A DNA stretch of 64,000 bases from positions 124,001 to 188,000 of the forward strand of contig NZ_JAFBBJ010000001.1 of assembly GCF_016907085.1 (NCBI RefSeq), given 5' to 3'. The stretch is from Clavibacter michiganensis (GTDB lineage Bacteria; Actinomycetota; Actinomycetes; Actinomycetales; Microbacteriaceae). Below the pieces are notes generated by a model. It ran no database searches. It was given only the letters and a program-made list of their open reading frames with translations, and was not told the DNA's origin. The position numbers and the translations under genes were made by a program. Of the stretch, positions 10,263-16,813 are shown piece by piece (within the stretch, counting starts at the first letter, position 1; each line of letters starts with the position of its first letter).

Positions 10263-10886
10263 TCAGCGGATCGCGGCCCGCAGCTCGGCGGCGGCCGCGG
10301 CCGGGTCGTCGGCCGAGTAGATCGCGCCGCCCGCGACGGCGACCACGGCGCCCGCGTCCTGCACGTCGCCGATGGTGCCGGGCTTCACGCCGCCCGCGAC
10401 GGAGAACGCGACGCCGGAGGCCTTGCCTGCCTCGAGCAGGTCGCCGAACGTGTAGCCGTCCTCCGCCTGCTCGTCGAGGCCCGCGTGCATCTCCACGAAC
10501 TCGGCACCGAGCTCGGTGACCTCCTTCGCGCGCTTCGCCTTGTCGGGGACGCCGATGAGGTCGACGACGATGCCCTTGCCGTGCTTCTTCGCGGCCTTGA
10601 CGGCGCCCGCGATGGTGCTGTCGCCCGCGACGCCGAGGACCGTGACGAGGTCAGCGCCCGCGGAGAACGCGATGTCGGCCTCGAGCTCGCCGGCGTCCAT
10701 CGTCTTGAGGTCGGCGAAGACGATCTTGTCGGGGTGCGCCTCCTTGATCGCGGTGATCGCGGAGAGGCCCTCGGCCTTGATGAGCGGGGTGCCCAGCTCG
10801 ATGATGTCGACGTGCGGCGCGGCCTTGCCGGCCAGCTCGAGAGCGTCCTTCGTCGTGAGCACGTCCATGGCTACCTGGAGCTTCAT
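10263..10886 (-). CDS. hxlA: 3-hexulose-6-phosphate synthase
   Basis: A 207-residue enzyme of the orotidine-phosphate-decarboxylase superfamily that condenses formaldehyde with ribulose 5-phosphate to D-arabino-3-hexulose 6-phosphate, or runs the reverse reaction to make ribulose 5-phosphate. The metal-binding DLKTMD motif (Asp59, Lys61, Asp64) and the phosphate-binding GGVKPGT segment are intact. It lies 55 bases downstream of the phosphohexuloisomerase gene in one operon, which makes the assignment secure against the related KGPDC enzymes. In a non-methylotroph the pair normally detoxifies formaldehyde. Confidence 0.93.
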   Translation of the reverse strand: MKLQVAMDVLTTKDALELAGKAAPHVDIIELGTPLIKAEGLSAITAIKEAHPDKIVFADLKTMDAGELEADIAFSAGADLVTVLGVAGDSTIAGAVKAAKKHGKGIVVDLIGVPDKAKRAKEVTELGAEFVEMHAGLDEQAEDGYTFGDLLEAGKASGVAFSVAGGVKPGTIGDVQDAGAVVAVAGGAIYSADDPAAAAAELRAAIR

Positions 10887-10941
10887 GCGGTTCCTCTTCC
10901 TGTCGTGATGCGTTCGGTGGTGGGGATCGAGCGACCGTCGG

Positions 10942-11550
10942 TCACTCGAGGTTGGCGTGACGCGGCCACAGCTCGTCGGCCGAGAGGCCGGACGCCTGCC
11001 ACAGCGCGTGGAACACGGCGTCGCCGACCAGCGCGACGGAGAGCTCGAAGAGCCCGCCCGCGTACTGCGCCGAGACCGTGCCGCCGTGGTCCTGCTTGGC
11101 GGCCGCGGGGATCAGCACGGTCACGTCCGCGAGGTCGGCGAGCGGCGAGTCGTCGGCCGTCGTGAGCGCGACGATGCGGGCGCCCACGTCGTGCGCGGTC
11201 TGCGCGGCGCTGACGATGCCCGCCGTGGTGCCGGATCCGCTCGCGACCAGGAGGACGTCGCCTTCCTCGATCGCGGGCGACGTGGCCTCGCCGACGACGT
11301 GCGCGTCGAGCCCCAGGTGCATGAACCGCATGGCGGTCATGCGGAGCGCGAGGCCGGAGCGGCCGGCGCCGAGGGCGAAGACGCGGCGGCCGTCGCGGAT
11401 CACGCGGGCGGCCTCGTCGAGGCGCGTCGCGAGGTCCGGGTCGGTGAGGGCGCGGGCTACACGGGCGTTCTCGTCGGAGATGAGCGTGATCGCGGCGGCC
11501 ACGTCGACGGGGGCGTCGCCGGTCGGGCGGGGGTGCGTCGAATCGGTCAC
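10942..11550 (-). CDS. hxlB: 6-phospho-3-hexuloisomerase
   Basis: A 202-residue single SIS-domain isomerase converting 3-hexulose 6-phosphate to fructose 6-phosphate. The sugar-phosphate loop GAGRSGLALRMTAMRFMHLG and the second SIS motif LLVASGSGTTAGIV are clear, as is the HANLE C-terminus common in this family. It is the first gene of the hxlB-hxlA operon; the start is GTG with GAGGAGC upstream. A kinase-like LuxR regulator is transcribed divergently from about 120 bases away and is the obvious candidate for control. Confidence 0.93.
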   Translation of the reverse strand: MTDSTHPRPTGDAPVDVAAAITLISDENARVARALTDPDLATRLDEAARVIRDGRRVFALGAGRSGLALRMTAMRFMHLGLDAHVVGEATSPAIEEGDVLLVASGSGTTAGIVSAAQTAHDVGARIVALTTADDSPLADLADVTVLIPAAAKQDHGGTVSAQYAGGLFELSVALVGDAVFHALWQASGLSADELWPRHANLE

Positions 11551-11669
11551 GTGTCGAGGGTGCTCCTCGCGGCCCGTCCGTGACGCCCACCCGACGGGTG
11601 GATCCGCCTACCCGTCCGAGCAGGTCGCCGTCGCGCGGGCGGCGGATCGGGTGGGCGTACGGTGGCGGG

Positions 11670-12992
11670 ATGCCGTCCCGGACCCACCCCGCCGATCCCG
11701 CCGCCCGTCCCGCCGCCGCGTCCGCCGACGCCGTCGCGCTGCTCGACGGCCTGCACGACGCGCTCGCCGCCCCGCTGCAGGAGGTCGCGGAGGCGCTGTC
11801 CGCCCTGCTGCGACCGGTGGTCGCGCATCGCGCCCTCGTGATCTTCACGGAGGACTGCACGGGCCGCCCGCGCAAGAAGGCGGGCGAGGCGGAGGTCGTG
11901 GAGAACGTGACGATCGCCGAGCTCGACCGGATCCTCGCGAGCCTGGCCGACGGGTCCGGCGACGCGGCCGACGACGTCGGCTCCGTCTGGGCCGTCGAGC
12001 ACCCCGTCGGCGGCCGTCCTCGCACGGTCGCCGCCTGGCGCGCCGACACGGGCGCGCTCCTCGTGCTCGTGGATCCCGTCGCCGCGCACGACGACGTGCC
12101 CGCCGCCCGCGAGCTGGTGCGCGCGCTGTGGCGCAGCGTCGCCCACGGGATCCGGCAGCAGGTCGCCGCGGCGCCGCCCGCCTACCTCGCCGAGGCGCGC
12201 GCCGTCTCGTCGGAGCGCGCCCGGATCGTGTCCGAGCTGGGCGACGCGCACGCCACCACGCTCGAGTCGCTGCTCGCGGTGCTCCGCTCCTCCCGCACGG
12301 GCGACGCGGCCGCCCGCCAGACCGCGGCCGACCTCGCGACCAACGCCATGGTCGAGCTGCGCGCCGCGAGCGACCGCGACCGCTCGCTGGGCGAGGAGCC
12401 CGTCGCGCGCGCCTTCGCGCGGCTCCGCGACGACCTGCGGCCGCTCGTCCGCTTCCGCGACCTCGACGTGCAGTTCGTCGAGCCGCCCGTGGACGGCCGC
12501 GCGCTCCCGGGCGAGGTCGCGCACGCGGGACGGGCCATCGTGCGCGGCGCCGTGCTCGCGCTCGTGGAGCAGCCGGACGTGACGCGCGTGCGGATCCAGT
12601 GGGACTGCGACGGCAGCAACCTCCTCGTCGGGATCCGCGACGACGGCGCGGGGGCCACCACCGCCGACCTCGACGCGCTCCGCCGCCTCACCGACCGCGT
12701 CGCCGCGCTCGACGGCGCGCTCGACGTGACGGCGACGCCCGGCTGGGGATCCGAGATCGCCGTGCGCCTGCCGCTCGACGCTCCCGCCGCCGGCCTCGAC
12801 GCCGCGGGAGAGGCCGGGCTCAGCGCGCGCGAGCGGGAGGTGCTCGCGCTCGTGGCCGGCGGATCCCGCAACCGCGCCATCGCGACGACCCTCGGGATCA
12901 GCGAGAACACCGTGAAGTTCCACGTCGCGAACCTGCTGCGGAAGATGGGCGCCTCGACGCGCGCCGAGCTCGCGGGGCTCGTGCGGGGCTGA
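11670..12992 (+). CDS. LuxR-type regulator fused to a kinase-like ATPase domain
   Basis: A 440-residue protein with three parts. Residues 20-170 are a GAF-like input region without clear motif. Residues 180-370 look like a NarL-type histidine-kinase core: an H-box-like segment at 181-194, a G1 box GIRDDGAGA (321-329) and a G2 box TPGWGS (356-361). Residues 384-440 are a LuxR helix-turn-helix with intact LSAREREVLALVAGG. The normal phospho-acceptor His of the H-box is replaced by Gly191 and there is no receiver domain, so it probably acts as a one-protein ATP- or ligand-responsive transcription factor. TACGGT (11658-11663) ends six bases before the ATG. It is divergent from hxlBA. Confidence 0.82.
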   Translation: MPSRTHPADPAARPAAASADAVALLDGLHDALAAPLQEVAEALSALLRPVVAHRALVIFTEDCTGRPRKKAGEAEVVENVTIAELDRILASLADGSGDAADDVGSVWAVEHPVGGRPRTVAAWRADTGALLVLVDPVAAHDDVPAARELVRALWRSVAHGIRQQVAAAPPAYLAEARAVSSERARIVSELGDAHATTLESLLAVLRSSRTGDAAARQTAADLATNAMVELRAASDRDRSLGEEPVARAFARLRDDLRPLVRFRDLDVQFVEPPVDGRALPGEVAHAGRAIVRGAVLALVEQPDVTRVRIQWDCDGSNLLVGIRDDGAGATTADLDALRRLTDRVAALDGALDVTATPGWGSEIAVRLPLDAPAAGLDAAGEAGLSAREREVLALVAGGSRNRAIATTLGISENTVKFHVANLLRKMGASTRAELAGLVRG

Positions 12993-13088: not shown

Positions 13089-13126
13089 ATTGAGCACCGC
13101 CGCCCGCCCGAACGAGGATGTCCCGC

Positions 13127-15274
13127 ATGCGCTCAGCTCCCACCCGAAACCCGTCCGGAGCCGCCCGCTCCGGCGCCCTCGCCCTCGCGGCGGGACTCTC
13201 CGCCACCGCGGTCCTCGGCCTCGGCGCCGCGCCCGCGTCGGCCGCCGAGGGCGACGTCGCCATCGACGTGTACTCGATCAACGACTTCCACGGCCGCCTG
13301 GAGACCACGTCGTCCACCGCGGGTGCCGCGGTGATCTCCGGCGCCTTCCAGCAGGCGAAGGCCGAGAACCCGAACAGCACGCTCATCAGCGCGGGCGACA
13401 ACATCGGCGCCTCGACCTTCACGTCGCTGTCCCAGCAGGACGAGCCCACCATCGACGCGCTGAACGCCATGGGCGTCTCCGTCTCCACGCTCGGCAACCA
13501 CGAGTTCGACCAGGGCCGCGACGACGTCGACGGCCGCGTCGTCCCCGCATCCGACTTCCCGTACATCTCGGCGAACCTCTACGAGAAGGGCACGACGGAG
13601 CACGCGTACGCGGCGTACGACGTGCAGGACATCGACGGCGTGCGCGTCGCGTTCGTCGGCGCGACGACCGAGGCGCTGCCCGAGCTCGTGAGCCCGGCCG
13701 GGATCGCATCGCTCGACGTCGGCAGCGTCGTCGACGCCTCCACCGCGACCGCCCGCGCGCTCCGCGACGGCGACGACGCGAACGGCGAGGCCGACGTGGT
13801 CGTGCTCGTCGTGCACGAGGGCGCGTCCACCTCCGACGAGTCCTCCCTCACCGACGACTCGGTCTTCGGCCGCATCGTCACGGGCGTGCAGCAGGACGTC
13901 GACGCCGTGATCTCCGGCCACACCCACCTCGGCTACGACTACGAGCTGCCCGTCGCGGGCAAGGCCCTGCCGCTGCCCGTGCTGCAGACCGGCAGCTACG
14001 GCACGAACCTCGGGCACCTGTCGCTCACGGTGGATCCCGCCACCAAGGCGCTCACGTCCATCAGCTCCGAGCTCGTCCCGCTCCTCACGGCCGAGGGGAA
14101 GCCGGCGTTCCCGGCGGATCCCGCGGTGCAGCGGATCGTGGACGACGCGGTCGCGAAGGCCGAGGTCATCGGCAGCCGCACGGTCGGCGAGATCACGGGC
14201 GACATCACGCGCGCCCGCCAGGCGGACGGCTCCGAGAACCGCGGCGGCGAGTCCACGATCGGCAACCTCGTCGCCGACGCGCAGCTCTGGGCCACGCAGG
14301 CGGACCTCGGCACCGAGATCGCCTTCATGAACCCCGGCGGCATCCGCCAGGACCTGAACGTCGCGTCGTCGGGCGCCGGCGACGCGGAGGGCGAGGTGAC
14401 CTACAAGGAGGCCGCCATCGTGCAGCCGTTCGCCAACACGCTCACGAGGGCGAAGATCACGGGCGCGGGTATCAAGGCCGTGCTCGAGCAGCAGTGGCAG
14501 CCCGAGGGATCCTCGCGGCCGTTCCTCAAGCTCGGCCTCTCGCGCGACCTCACCTACACGTACGACCCGACGGCCGCGCGCGGCGAGCGGATCACGGGCG
14601 TGTTCTTCCGAGGCGAGCCGGTGGATCCCGCGCGCGTCTTCACGATGGTCGCGAACAGCTTCCTCGCCGAGGGCGGCGACAACTTCACAGAGCTCGCGAA
14701 CACGACCGAGCAGAGCGACTCCGGCCGCATCGACCTCACCGCCTTCGTCGACTACATCACCGAGTTCTCGCCCGTCGAGCCCGACTCGGCGACGCGCTCG
14801 ATCGGCATCGTCGACACCACGGGCGCCGCTCCTCGCGCCGGGCAGGAGCGCTCCTACGAGCTCTCCTCGCTCCTCGTCTCGAACGCGCCCGTGCAGGACA
14901 CCGAGGTGGTGACGCTCATCGACGGCGAGGAGGTGGCGCGCACGCCGATCGACGCCGCCGTGGTCGACACGACCGACGAGCAGGGGCGCGCGAGCGTCCG
15001 GTTCACGGTGCCGGCCGGCCTCACGGCGGGCCCGCACCAGCTCGCGTTCCTGCTGCCGAGCACGGGCGCCTCGGTGCTCTACGCGCTCGACACGTCGGCC
15101 GGATCCGTCGTCCCGTCCGGCACGGGCACGGTGCCCGCGCCGAGCTCGGAGCCCACGCTCGCGGCGACCGGATCCGAGTCCGGACCCGTGCTCGGGACCT
15201 CGCTCGCGGCGCTGGTCCTCGGCCTCGCGCTCGTCGCGTTCCGCCGCCGGATGTCGGCGGCCGCGCGCCGCTAG
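13127..15274 (+). CDS. Cell-wall-anchored 5'-nucleotidase / UDP-sugar hydrolase family phosphoesterase
   Basis: A 715-residue exported bifunctional phosphatase that would release nucleosides and phosphate from external nucleotides. A signal peptide covers about residues 1-40 (cleavage near ASAAE). The metallophosphatase domain follows with NDFHGRL (52-58), GNHEFDQG and GHTH. Then comes the 5'-nucleotidase C-terminal substrate domain (NPGGIRQDL) and a final Ig-like stretch. The tail has LAATG at 678-682, a hydrophobic helix and a basic end: a class E sortase signal (LAxTG). ATG at 13127 has ACGAGG nine bases upstream; ATG at 13118 is in frame but too close to that site. Confidence 0.9.
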   Translation: MRSAPTRNPSGAARSGALALAAGLSATAVLGLGAAPASAAEGDVAIDVYSINDFHGRLETTSSTAGAAVISGAFQQAKAENPNSTLISAGDNIGASTFTSLSQQDEPTIDALNAMGVSVSTLGNHEFDQGRDDVDGRVVPASDFPYISANLYEKGTTEHAYAAYDVQDIDGVRVAFVGATTEALPELVSPAGIASLDVGSVVDASTATARALRDGDDANGEADVVVLVVHEGASTSDESSLTDDSVFGRIVTGVQQDVDAVISGHTHLGYDYELPVAGKALPLPVLQTGSYGTNLGHLSLTVDPATKALTSISSELVPLLTAEGKPAFPADPAVQRIVDDAVAKAEVIGSRTVGEITGDITRARQADGSENRGGESTIGNLVADAQLWATQADLGTEIAFMNPGGIRQDLNVASSGAGDAEGEVTYKEAAIVQPFANTLTRAKITGAGIKAVLEQQWQPEGSSRPFLKLGLSRDLTYTYDPTAARGERITGVFFRGEPVDPARVFTMVANSFLAEGGDNFTELANTTEQSDSGRIDLTAFVDYITEFSPVEPDSATRSIGIVDTTGAAPRAGQERSYELSSLLVSNAPVQDTEVVTLIDGEEVARTPIDAAVVDTTDEQGRASVRFTVPAGLTAGPHQLAFLLPSTGASVLYALDTSAGSVVPSGTGTVPAPSSEPTLAATGSESGPVLGTSLAALVLGLALVAFRRRMSAAARR

Positions 15275-15287
15275 TCCTCGGCGACCC

Positions 15288-15335
15288 GCGCGGGCGGGGC
15301 GGGTGCCGGGCGACCGGCGCCCGCCCCGTCCGCGC
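15288..15335 (+). terminator. Terminator of the 5'-nucleotidase gene
   Basis: A nearly perfect 20-base-pair hairpin (15288-15307 with 15316-15335) with an eight-base loop begins 13 bases after the stop codon. Confidence 0.8.
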
Positions 15336-15385
15336 ATCCGCGGTCGGCCGGTCGGCCCGCCCCGACCCCGGCCTACGCTGGACCG

Positions 15386-16813
15386 GTGTTCGAACTCCAC
15401 CACCTCACCGCTCAGGACCAGTGGGACCAGCTCCAGCGCGGCGAGGTCACCCCGACCGAGCTCGTGACCCACTACCTCGAGCGCATCGAGCGGCTGGACC
15501 CGGGCCTCGGCGCGTTCACGACCGTCACCGCCGACCGTGCCCTGGAGCGCGCCCGGCACGTCGAGCGCGAGGTGCCGCGCACCGCGCCGCTCTGGGGCCT
15601 GCCGTTCGGCGACAAGGACCTCTCCGAGCGCGCCGGCGTCCGCACCACCTTCGGCTCCCGCCTCTTCCGCGACCACGTGTCCGACCGCACCGACCCGATC
15701 CCGCAGGCGCTCGACGACGCGGGCGGCATCAGCCTGGGCAAGACGAGCGCGCCCGAGTTCGGCCTGCCGTCGTACACGGAGAGCCTCGTCGGCCCGCCCG
15801 CGCGCACGCCCTGGGACACCACGCGCGGTGCCGGTGGATCCAGCGGGGGAGCGGCCGTCGCGGTCGCGGCGGGCCTCCTGCCGTTCGCGCCGGGATCCGA
15901 CGGCGGCGGCTCGGTGCGCATCCCCGCGGCGGCCACCGGCCTCGTCGGCCTCAAGCCGTCGCGCGGCCTCGTGCCCGCGGGATCCGGCCAGGAGTCGCTC
16001 GCGGGCCTCGTGGTCCCCGGCCCGCTCGCGCGCAGCGTCGCGGACGCGGCCATGCTGCTCGACGCGATGATCGGCCGGGTCAACGGCCGCATCCCGCACC
16101 CCTTCACCCTGCGCGCGCCCGAGGACCCGGACGGCGACCTGCTGGGCGCGGCCGTCCGCGGCGAGGGCCGCTTCCAGATCGGCGTGATGACCACCACGCC
16201 GTGGGACGACGCCTACGAGATCGTGCGCGACCCCTCCGCCGACGACGCCCTCGCGCTCGCCGTGCGCGAGCTCGCGACCATGGGCCACGGCCTGGAGGAC
16301 CTCGCGCTGCGGCCGGATCCCACCTACGCGCCCGCGTTCCGCACCATCTGGCAGGCCGGTGCCGCGGGGATCCCGGCCGAGGGCGACCAGCTCGACCTCC
16401 TCGAGCCGCTCACGCGCTGGCTCGTGGAGCGCGGCCGGACCCTCACGGCGCGCGACCTCGCCCGCGCGCTCGCGCAGCTCGCCGCCTACGAGCGCAGCGT
16501 GATCGCGCAGTTCGCCCACGTGGACGCCGTGCTCACCCCCGCGCTCGCGCAGGAGCCGCGGCCGATCGGCTGGTACGACGCCGAGGACGGCGAGCGGAAC
16601 TTCGCGCAGCAGGTGCGGTACACGCCGTACACGTCGTTCGCCAACGTGACGGGCCTGCCCGCGATCACGCTGCCCGTGCACCTCACGGACGACGGCCTGC
16701 CCATGGGCGTGCAGCTCATCGGCAAGCCGGGCGGGGAGGCGACGCTGCTCGCGATCGGCCGGCAGCTCGAGCGGCGCCTGCGCTGGCAGCGGCGGCACCC
16801 GCCGCAGTGGTGA
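15386..16813 (+). CDS. Amidase signature family amidase
   Basis: A 475-residue cytoplasmic amide hydrolase. The Ser-cisSer-Lys triad is complete: Lys77 in FGDKDL, the cis-Ser in GAGGSSGGAA (about residue 152) and the nucleophile Ser176 in GSDGGGSVRIPA. It is therefore an amidase proper rather than a GatA subunit, since no gatB or gatC neighbours are present. The substrate (aliphatic, aryl or peptide amide) is unknown. Start GTG at 15386 follows TACGCT (15374-15379) by six bases, predicting a leaderless mRNA. It is convergent with the exporter gene, with only nine bases between the stops. Confidence 0.93.
   Translation: MFELHHLTAQDQWDQLQRGEVTPTELVTHYLERIERLDPGLGAFTTVTADRALERARHVEREVPRTAPLWGLPFGDKDLSERAGVRTTFGSRLFRDHVSDRTDPIPQALDDAGGISLGKTSAPEFGLPSYTESLVGPPARTPWDTTRGAGGSSGGAAVAVAAGLLPFAPGSDGGGSVRIPAAATGLVGLKPSRGLVPAGSGQESLAGLVVPGPLARSVADAAMLLDAMIGRVNGRIPHPFTLRAPEDPDGDLLGAAVRGEGRFQIGVMTTTPWDDAYEIVRDPSADDALALAVRELATMGHGLEDLALRPDPTYAPAFRTIWQAGAAGIPAEGDQLDLLEPLTRWLVERGRTLTARDLARALAQLAAYERSVIAQFAHVDAVLTPALAQEPRPIGWYDAEDGERNFAQQVRYTPYTSFANVTGLPAITLPVHLTDDGLPMGVQLIGKPGGEATLLAIGRQLERRLRWQRRHPPQW

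Follow-up and report, generated by a model that had tools for sequence, protein, structure and literature searches.

A conserved pseudokinase-LuxR lineage is tied to formaldehyde genes and comes with a predicted operator. Its member in Clavibacter michiganensis, a clear candidate case of a sensor kinase turned one-component transcription factor, lies in the 64,000-nucleotide stretch analysed here (the window) of a 3.32-Mb genome, on the forward strand and divergent from hxlB and hxlA, both on the reverse strand (Table 1). Since this gene travels with formaldehyde genes and one predicted site is common to them, the regulator is very likely a dedicated controller of formaldehyde-consuming genes. 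The formaldehyde-fixation genes of many actinobacteria, with loci seen in Clavibacter, Cryobacterium, Plantibacter, Arthrobacter and some mycobacteria among others, would thereby gain a candidate regulator whose predicted operator is defined. It might also serve as a component in formaldehyde biosensors and synthetic methylotrophy.

Table 1. Features of the regulator-hxlBA region, in positions of the window
Feature	Position	Strand	Details
hxlA, 3-hexulose-6-phosphate synthase	10263..10886	-	TIGR03128, 254.4 bits (cut-off 200)
hxlB, 6-phospho-3-hexuloisomerase	10942..11550	-	TIGR03127, 229.2 bits (cut-off 160)
Second palindrome CCACCCG-A-CGGGTGG	11587..11601		Read from sequence; centre about 22 bp from main dyad, nearer hxlB
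Predicted operator, main dyad	11607..11624		18 bp; CCTACCCG-NN-(C)G(A)G(C)AGG; window copy CCTACCCGTCCGAGCAGG
TACGGT, possible -10 element of regulator gene	11658..11663	+	Read from sequence; 6 bases before ATG
GAF-pseudokinase-LuxR regulator	11670..12992	+	440 aa, ATG start, stop codon included
GAF-like N-terminal domain	11712..12164	+	Residues ~15-165; Cys63 in TEDCTGRPxK
DHp-like helical hairpin	12177..12392	+	Residues 170-241; Gly191 (12240-12242) at acceptor His position
Degenerate CA (HATPase-like) domain	12402..12779	+	Residues 245-370; Ala297 at N-box Asn; G1 box kept; lid lost
LuxR/GerE DNA-binding domain	12819..12974	+	Residues 384-435; Pfam GerE E 1.7e-18

A degenerate kinase core joined to a LuxR domain

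The ATG at 11670 was preferred as the start of the regulator because its Clavibacter homologues measure 430-456 aa and nearly all of them span the whole query. At a contig end of Clavibacter lycopersici (L054), residues 196-440 recur identically. The C-terminal GerE helix-turn-helix scored 66.4 bits in Pfam against a cut-off of 23.5, and the core has the DHp-CA fold of the HPK7/HisKA_3 type. The Pfam search of the protein returned no receiver domain and, at E values up to 1, no HxlR-type (MarR/DUF24) winged helix. The collapsed two-component architecture proposed by the sequence-only reading, a kinase-like core and a LuxR domain with glycine for the acceptor histidine and no receiver, is supported. 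The protein shares its GerE domain with NarL/FixJ/DevR-type response regulators and has a pseudokinase core where they carry a receiver. From DesK/VraS-type kinases (HPK7, HisKA_3) it differs by lacking the acceptor histidine, the N-box asparagine and the lid, and by the attached LuxR domain.

Alignment of the core with 13 HisKA_3 kinases of the same genome placed Gly191 at the acceptor histidine and Ala297 at the N-box asparagine, with the GxGLxxM lid replaced and the G1 box kept. Residues were then counted in 113 family sequences, a set from which 7 sequences cut by locus ends were left out, 3 with in-frame stops and 22 duplicates having been skipped; its 23 'short' rows include L054, a contig end. 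The histidine position is occupied by Thr (58), Ala (18), Val (18), Gly (9), Ser (4), Ile (2), Leu, Met and His (1 each), with one gap, so that an acceptor histidine is found in 1 of the 112 sequences having a residue there. The N-box asparagine occurs in 0 of 113, and the lid is absent from the 22 members aligned with ordinary kinases. Asp324, Gly326 and Gly328 of the G1 box (DDGxG) are present in 113 of 113, and Arg288, Arg292 and Cys313 (12606-12608) are likewise invariant. With the acceptor histidine all but absent from the family and the N-box asparagine absent, phosphotransfer is very unlikely and Mg-ATP binding by the core doubtful.

The ATP boxes had been described from the sequence alone as intact; this stands for G1, and fails for the N-box and the lid. 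ATP gating, proposed in the same place, would require a core that still binds ATP and whose nucleotide state controls DNA binding. Such a switch would explain why the CA fold is retained together with an invariant G1 box that a fully dead domain would not need, but the Mg-ATP asparagine is missing from every family sequence and the lid is lost, and we regard it as improbable.

The single histidine at the position equivalent to 191 belongs to L029, within ADLHDAHATTLE. Its N-box asparagine is still missing and its relatives have threonine; the histidine may be a reversion.

Linkage to hxl and other formaldehyde genes

Among 199 Microbacteriaceae genomes, 51 hold both the regulator and HxlA, two the regulator alone, one HxlA alone and 145 neither, the regulator being called at E <= 1e-15 (53 genomes) and HxlA above its cut-off (52 genomes). 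The association has a Fisher P of 7e-44, kinship being ignored. Fifteen of the 18 genera in which either trait varies are fully concordant, a pattern that speaks for the two having been gained or lost together repeatedly. In 50 of 55 places the regulator stands divergently beside hxlB, the matched parts lying 130-530 bp apart; the hxlB list behind this count includes two sub-cut-off matches, G086 and G135, in which a contig end or the frame splits the gene, and omits the other sub-cut-off ones. At class level, HxlA was found in 7 of 394 genomes, all of them among the 21 that have the regulator or a relative. Of the best 80 of 480 loci, 63 contain hxl genes (55 divergent and adjacent), 11 more contain tkt and six neither (L054 at a contig end, L058, L064, L098, L108 and L111). 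The sequence-only reading had linked the protein to hxlBA as a possible regulator and set in advance, as a test, a survey of whether its architecture tracks hxlAB in other genomes; it does, with orthologues mostly beside hxlB, and the protein's role as a dedicated partner of hxlBA is supported.

Five of the 55 places are exceptions. In three of them (L030, L031 and L032, from G085, G126 and G164) the regulator is divergent from fdhA, encoding a glutathione-independent formaldehyde dehydrogenase, and in one (L026, from G078) from tkt. The fifth lies in genome G004, in which hxlBA is 823 kb from the regulator gene. The latter (L207) adjoins a long frame recognised by eye as resembling a serine/threonine kinase.

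Divergence from tkt recurs in 15 of the best 80 loci (of 480), in Arthrobacter-type and mycobacterial records. In L091, tal, rpe and rpiB come after tkt, and the other side holds zwf, hxlAB and an OpcA-like gene that scores below its cut-off. The regulator gene is also divergent from one for S-(hydroxymethyl)mycothiol dehydrogenase, the mycothiol-dependent formaldehyde dehydrogenase, in two relatives that are more distant, L174 and L175. Formaldehyde is what HxlA, FdhA and the mycothiol enzyme have in common. In a quick tree without bootstrap, rooted on the distant relatives, the copies from these contexts all lie to one side of a branch whose SH-aLRT is 93.

Two regulator matches contain in-frame stops, G141:C18:145274-146137 with one TAG and G045:C3:502111-502962 with two; these may precede the true start of short forms or reflect decay. 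Downstream of the regulator in the window (13118-16813), Pfam identified a 5'-nucleotidase-type protein and an amidase, with no evident formaldehyde link.

A predicted operator that follows the regulator gene

The intergenic regions between hxlB and the regulator, 116 de-duplicated to 77, share a palindrome with the family consensus CCTACCCG-NN-CGGGTAGG. Before any matrix existed, CTACCCG was found in 58 of the 77 regions, against 1.85 expected from shuffles, and an exact CTACC-N6-GGTAG in 19. A matrix built from 54 sites in 53 regions then scored at least 15 in 69 of 77, compared with a mean of 0.07 in shuffled sets. As this test of the matrix on its own regions is circular, training was also done on one lineage and testing on the others: the left-out lineages exceeded the 99th percentile of 200-bp background windows in 54/54, 45/45 and 51/55 regions.

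The main dyad at 11607-11624 is the top matrix match of the 64-kb window (15.6 vs 2.9 for the next) and falls within 11551-11669, the stretch that the sequence-only reading had proposed for a DNA-binding test. For the genome search, R and Y were introduced into the pattern so that it would match the site of the window itself, and with zero mismatches this widened pattern occurs at that one place. A wider regulon in the same genome was rejected: up to two mismatches gave 29 forward and 29 reverse matches vs 48 and 43 for a backwards control, and as the control outnumbers the matches, only the zero-mismatch site is meaningful. The palindrome at 11587..11601 is a probable second site, with a weak matrix score of -4.6; in 37 of 76 regions, the two highest-scoring matches are spaced 21 or 22 bp apart, the second mostly with a low score.

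In other genomes the site goes with the regulator. Of 37 genomes with fdhA above its cut-off, three have the regulator adjoining, 20 have it elsewhere and 14 are without it; the operator is present at fdhA in 3/3 of the first group and in 0/34 of the others. A regulon reaching unlinked fdhA was thus discarded, no site scoring at least 10 being found in the 20 genomes with the regulator elsewhere (one region measuring only 330 bases). In G004, a single genome with separated loci, a strong site stands at both promoters, scoring 25.9 at the regulator and 28.4 at hxlB. G167, also a single genome, has hxlBA and no regulator match; no site was found at its hxlB, the best score of the 5-kb locus being 8.3, about 1.5 kb off.

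From this distribution we strongly infer that the regulator protein binds the predicted operator. The pairing of protein and palindrome is a prediction, and the palindrome might belong to another transcription factor while the pseudokinase-LuxR protein does something else; the site nevertheless follows the regulator gene and not the target gene, which makes such a division of roles very improbable. Within the family, tkt-linked loci have a weaker site (at least 15 in 4 of 16, at least 10 in 7 of 16), and that branch may therefore have another specificity.

A good site is present in L058, but hxl genes are absent within its locus; L108 and L064 have neither hxl genes nor a good site in the locus. 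The orphan copy in the L064 record, titled Rhodococcus jostii NBRC 16295, resembles those of Microbacteriaceae and has an altered TEDCTGRP motif; the record may hold foreign sequence.

Direction of control and signal input

When 69 regions were anchored on the dyad, the hxlB side displayed a further conserved element some 22 bp farther along and an ATGGA-type element at a fixed distance before a start codon, and the regulator side little fixed-register conservation. On the latter side, TANNNT mostly occurs 13-20 bases beyond the dyad in related regions, a distance that is larger in the window. A TANNNT element for hxlB was rejected, with only 8 matches in the 69 regions. The fixed spacing between the dyad and a poor -10-like element at hxlB points to activation, and we propose with moderate confidence that the regulator activates hxlBA.

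Many LuxR/NarL-type regulators are activators. This and the fixed spacing, confined to the hxlB side, argue short of proof against a rival in which the same regulator and operator would repress hxlBA until formaldehyde relieved the repression. Dyads within the promoter region of both genes would suit a repressor, and FrmR of E. coli works that way, as described in part of a review (PMC8879981); repression of hxlBA seems to us rather unlikely.

Activation on rising formaldehyde is part of the reading that we consider probable. A DesK/DosS-like sensor kinase would have joined a LuxR/NarL-type DNA-binding domain and lost its phosphotransfer chemistry. The resulting one-component factor would bind the 18-bp palindrome between its own gene and hxlB, the weaker dyad about 22 bp nearer hxlB also being part of the binding region. 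As formaldehyde rises, it would activate hxlB-hxlA, whose poor promoter would be served from two or more dyads, and it would act on its own promoter through the same palindrome.

As for the signal, the copies beside fdhA and the mycothiol-dependent formaldehyde dehydrogenase favour formaldehyde over a sugar phosphate of the RuMP pathway, and a response to formaldehyde or a close adduct is proposed with moderate confidence. With regulator and operator unchanged, an RuMP or pentose-phosphate sugar phosphate could instead be sensed in an arginine-rich pseudo-nucleotide pocket. The invariance of Arg288 and Arg292 (113/113) and the many copies beside hxl genes and tkt-tal-rpe-rpiB would agree with such a ligand. 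The fdhA- and mycothiol-dehydrogenase-linked copies, however, accompany enzymes that handle formaldehyde without an RuMP sugar phosphate, and most distant relatives retain the two arginines as well (16 and 19 out of 20 sequences added, with hxl- and fdhA-linked ones among them). A sugar-phosphate signal is therefore unlikely.

In the quick tree, loss of the GAF domain maps to two places (19 of 69 rows are short; two changes), a single loss being compatible with that tree, and hxl linkage remains. Signal input would therefore probably reside in the pseudokinase core. Cys63 was rejected as a universal sensor: it is present in 87 of 90 long forms and missing from the short forms and three fdhA-linked long forms. 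It is also often present in distant relatives without a formaldehyde context. The best candidate among the residues is Cys313, located in the WDCDG turn, because it is invariant in long, short and fdhA-linked forms. Its case as a universal sensor is weakened by an alanine in L174, which adjoins a formaldehyde dehydrogenase. Entry of the signal through the core might, as a weak suggestion, involve Cys313.

The precedent for cysteine-based formaldehyde sensing is HxlR of Bacillus subtilis (MarR/DUF24), described in parts of two papers as a formaldehyde-responsive activator of the hxlAB operon (PMC8879981, PMC7835342) that senses its signal by a Cys11-Lys13 methylene bridge in the N-terminal helix (PMC7835342). 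Both HxlR and the present regulator are tied to hxlAB; HxlR is of another protein family and fold. FrmR (CsoR/RcnR family) and the FlhRS two-component system also control formaldehyde metabolism (PMC8879981, in part); as described, the first is a repressor of another family and the second a two-protein system, which sets both apart. Formaldehyde regulators named in the available part of that review are HxlR, TtmR, FrmR, AdhR, RamA and FlhRS, and the word LuxR does not occur in this text (PMC8879981). Neither do HATPase, GAF or formaldehyde in the available text of a census, from 2012, of the LuxR proteins of actinobacteria (PMC3466318). Judged by titles and the beginnings of abstracts, no description of a LuxR- or pseudokinase-type hxl regulator was found in the open-access literature searched.

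More tentatively, the family could be a new class of formaldehyde sensor, in which the ATPase-like fold of a dead kinase serves as an aldehyde detector (WDCDG, Cys313) wired to a LuxR domain. It would then be a general formaldehyde regulator of actinobacteria, redeployed in RuMP fixation and regeneration, with FdhA and in mycothiol-dependent detoxification, and a branch of a larger pseudokinase-LuxR family. We rate this extension as possible, on the less likely side.

Beyond L174 and L175, 14 other distant relatives have mixed neighbours: five are of the zinc-alcohol-dehydrogenase/quinone-oxidoreductase type (L176, L178, L179, L181 and L193), one is WrbA-like (L188), and those of the remaining eight are varied, several without recognisable identity. 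Cys313 occurs in none of these 14. L176, L178, L179, L180, L185, L187, L192, L193 and others are more distant relatives of the GAF-pseudokinase-LuxR type that lack both Cys313 and hxl genes. Upstream of several distant relatives lie paired weak palindromes, 22 bp apart and with a different consensus.
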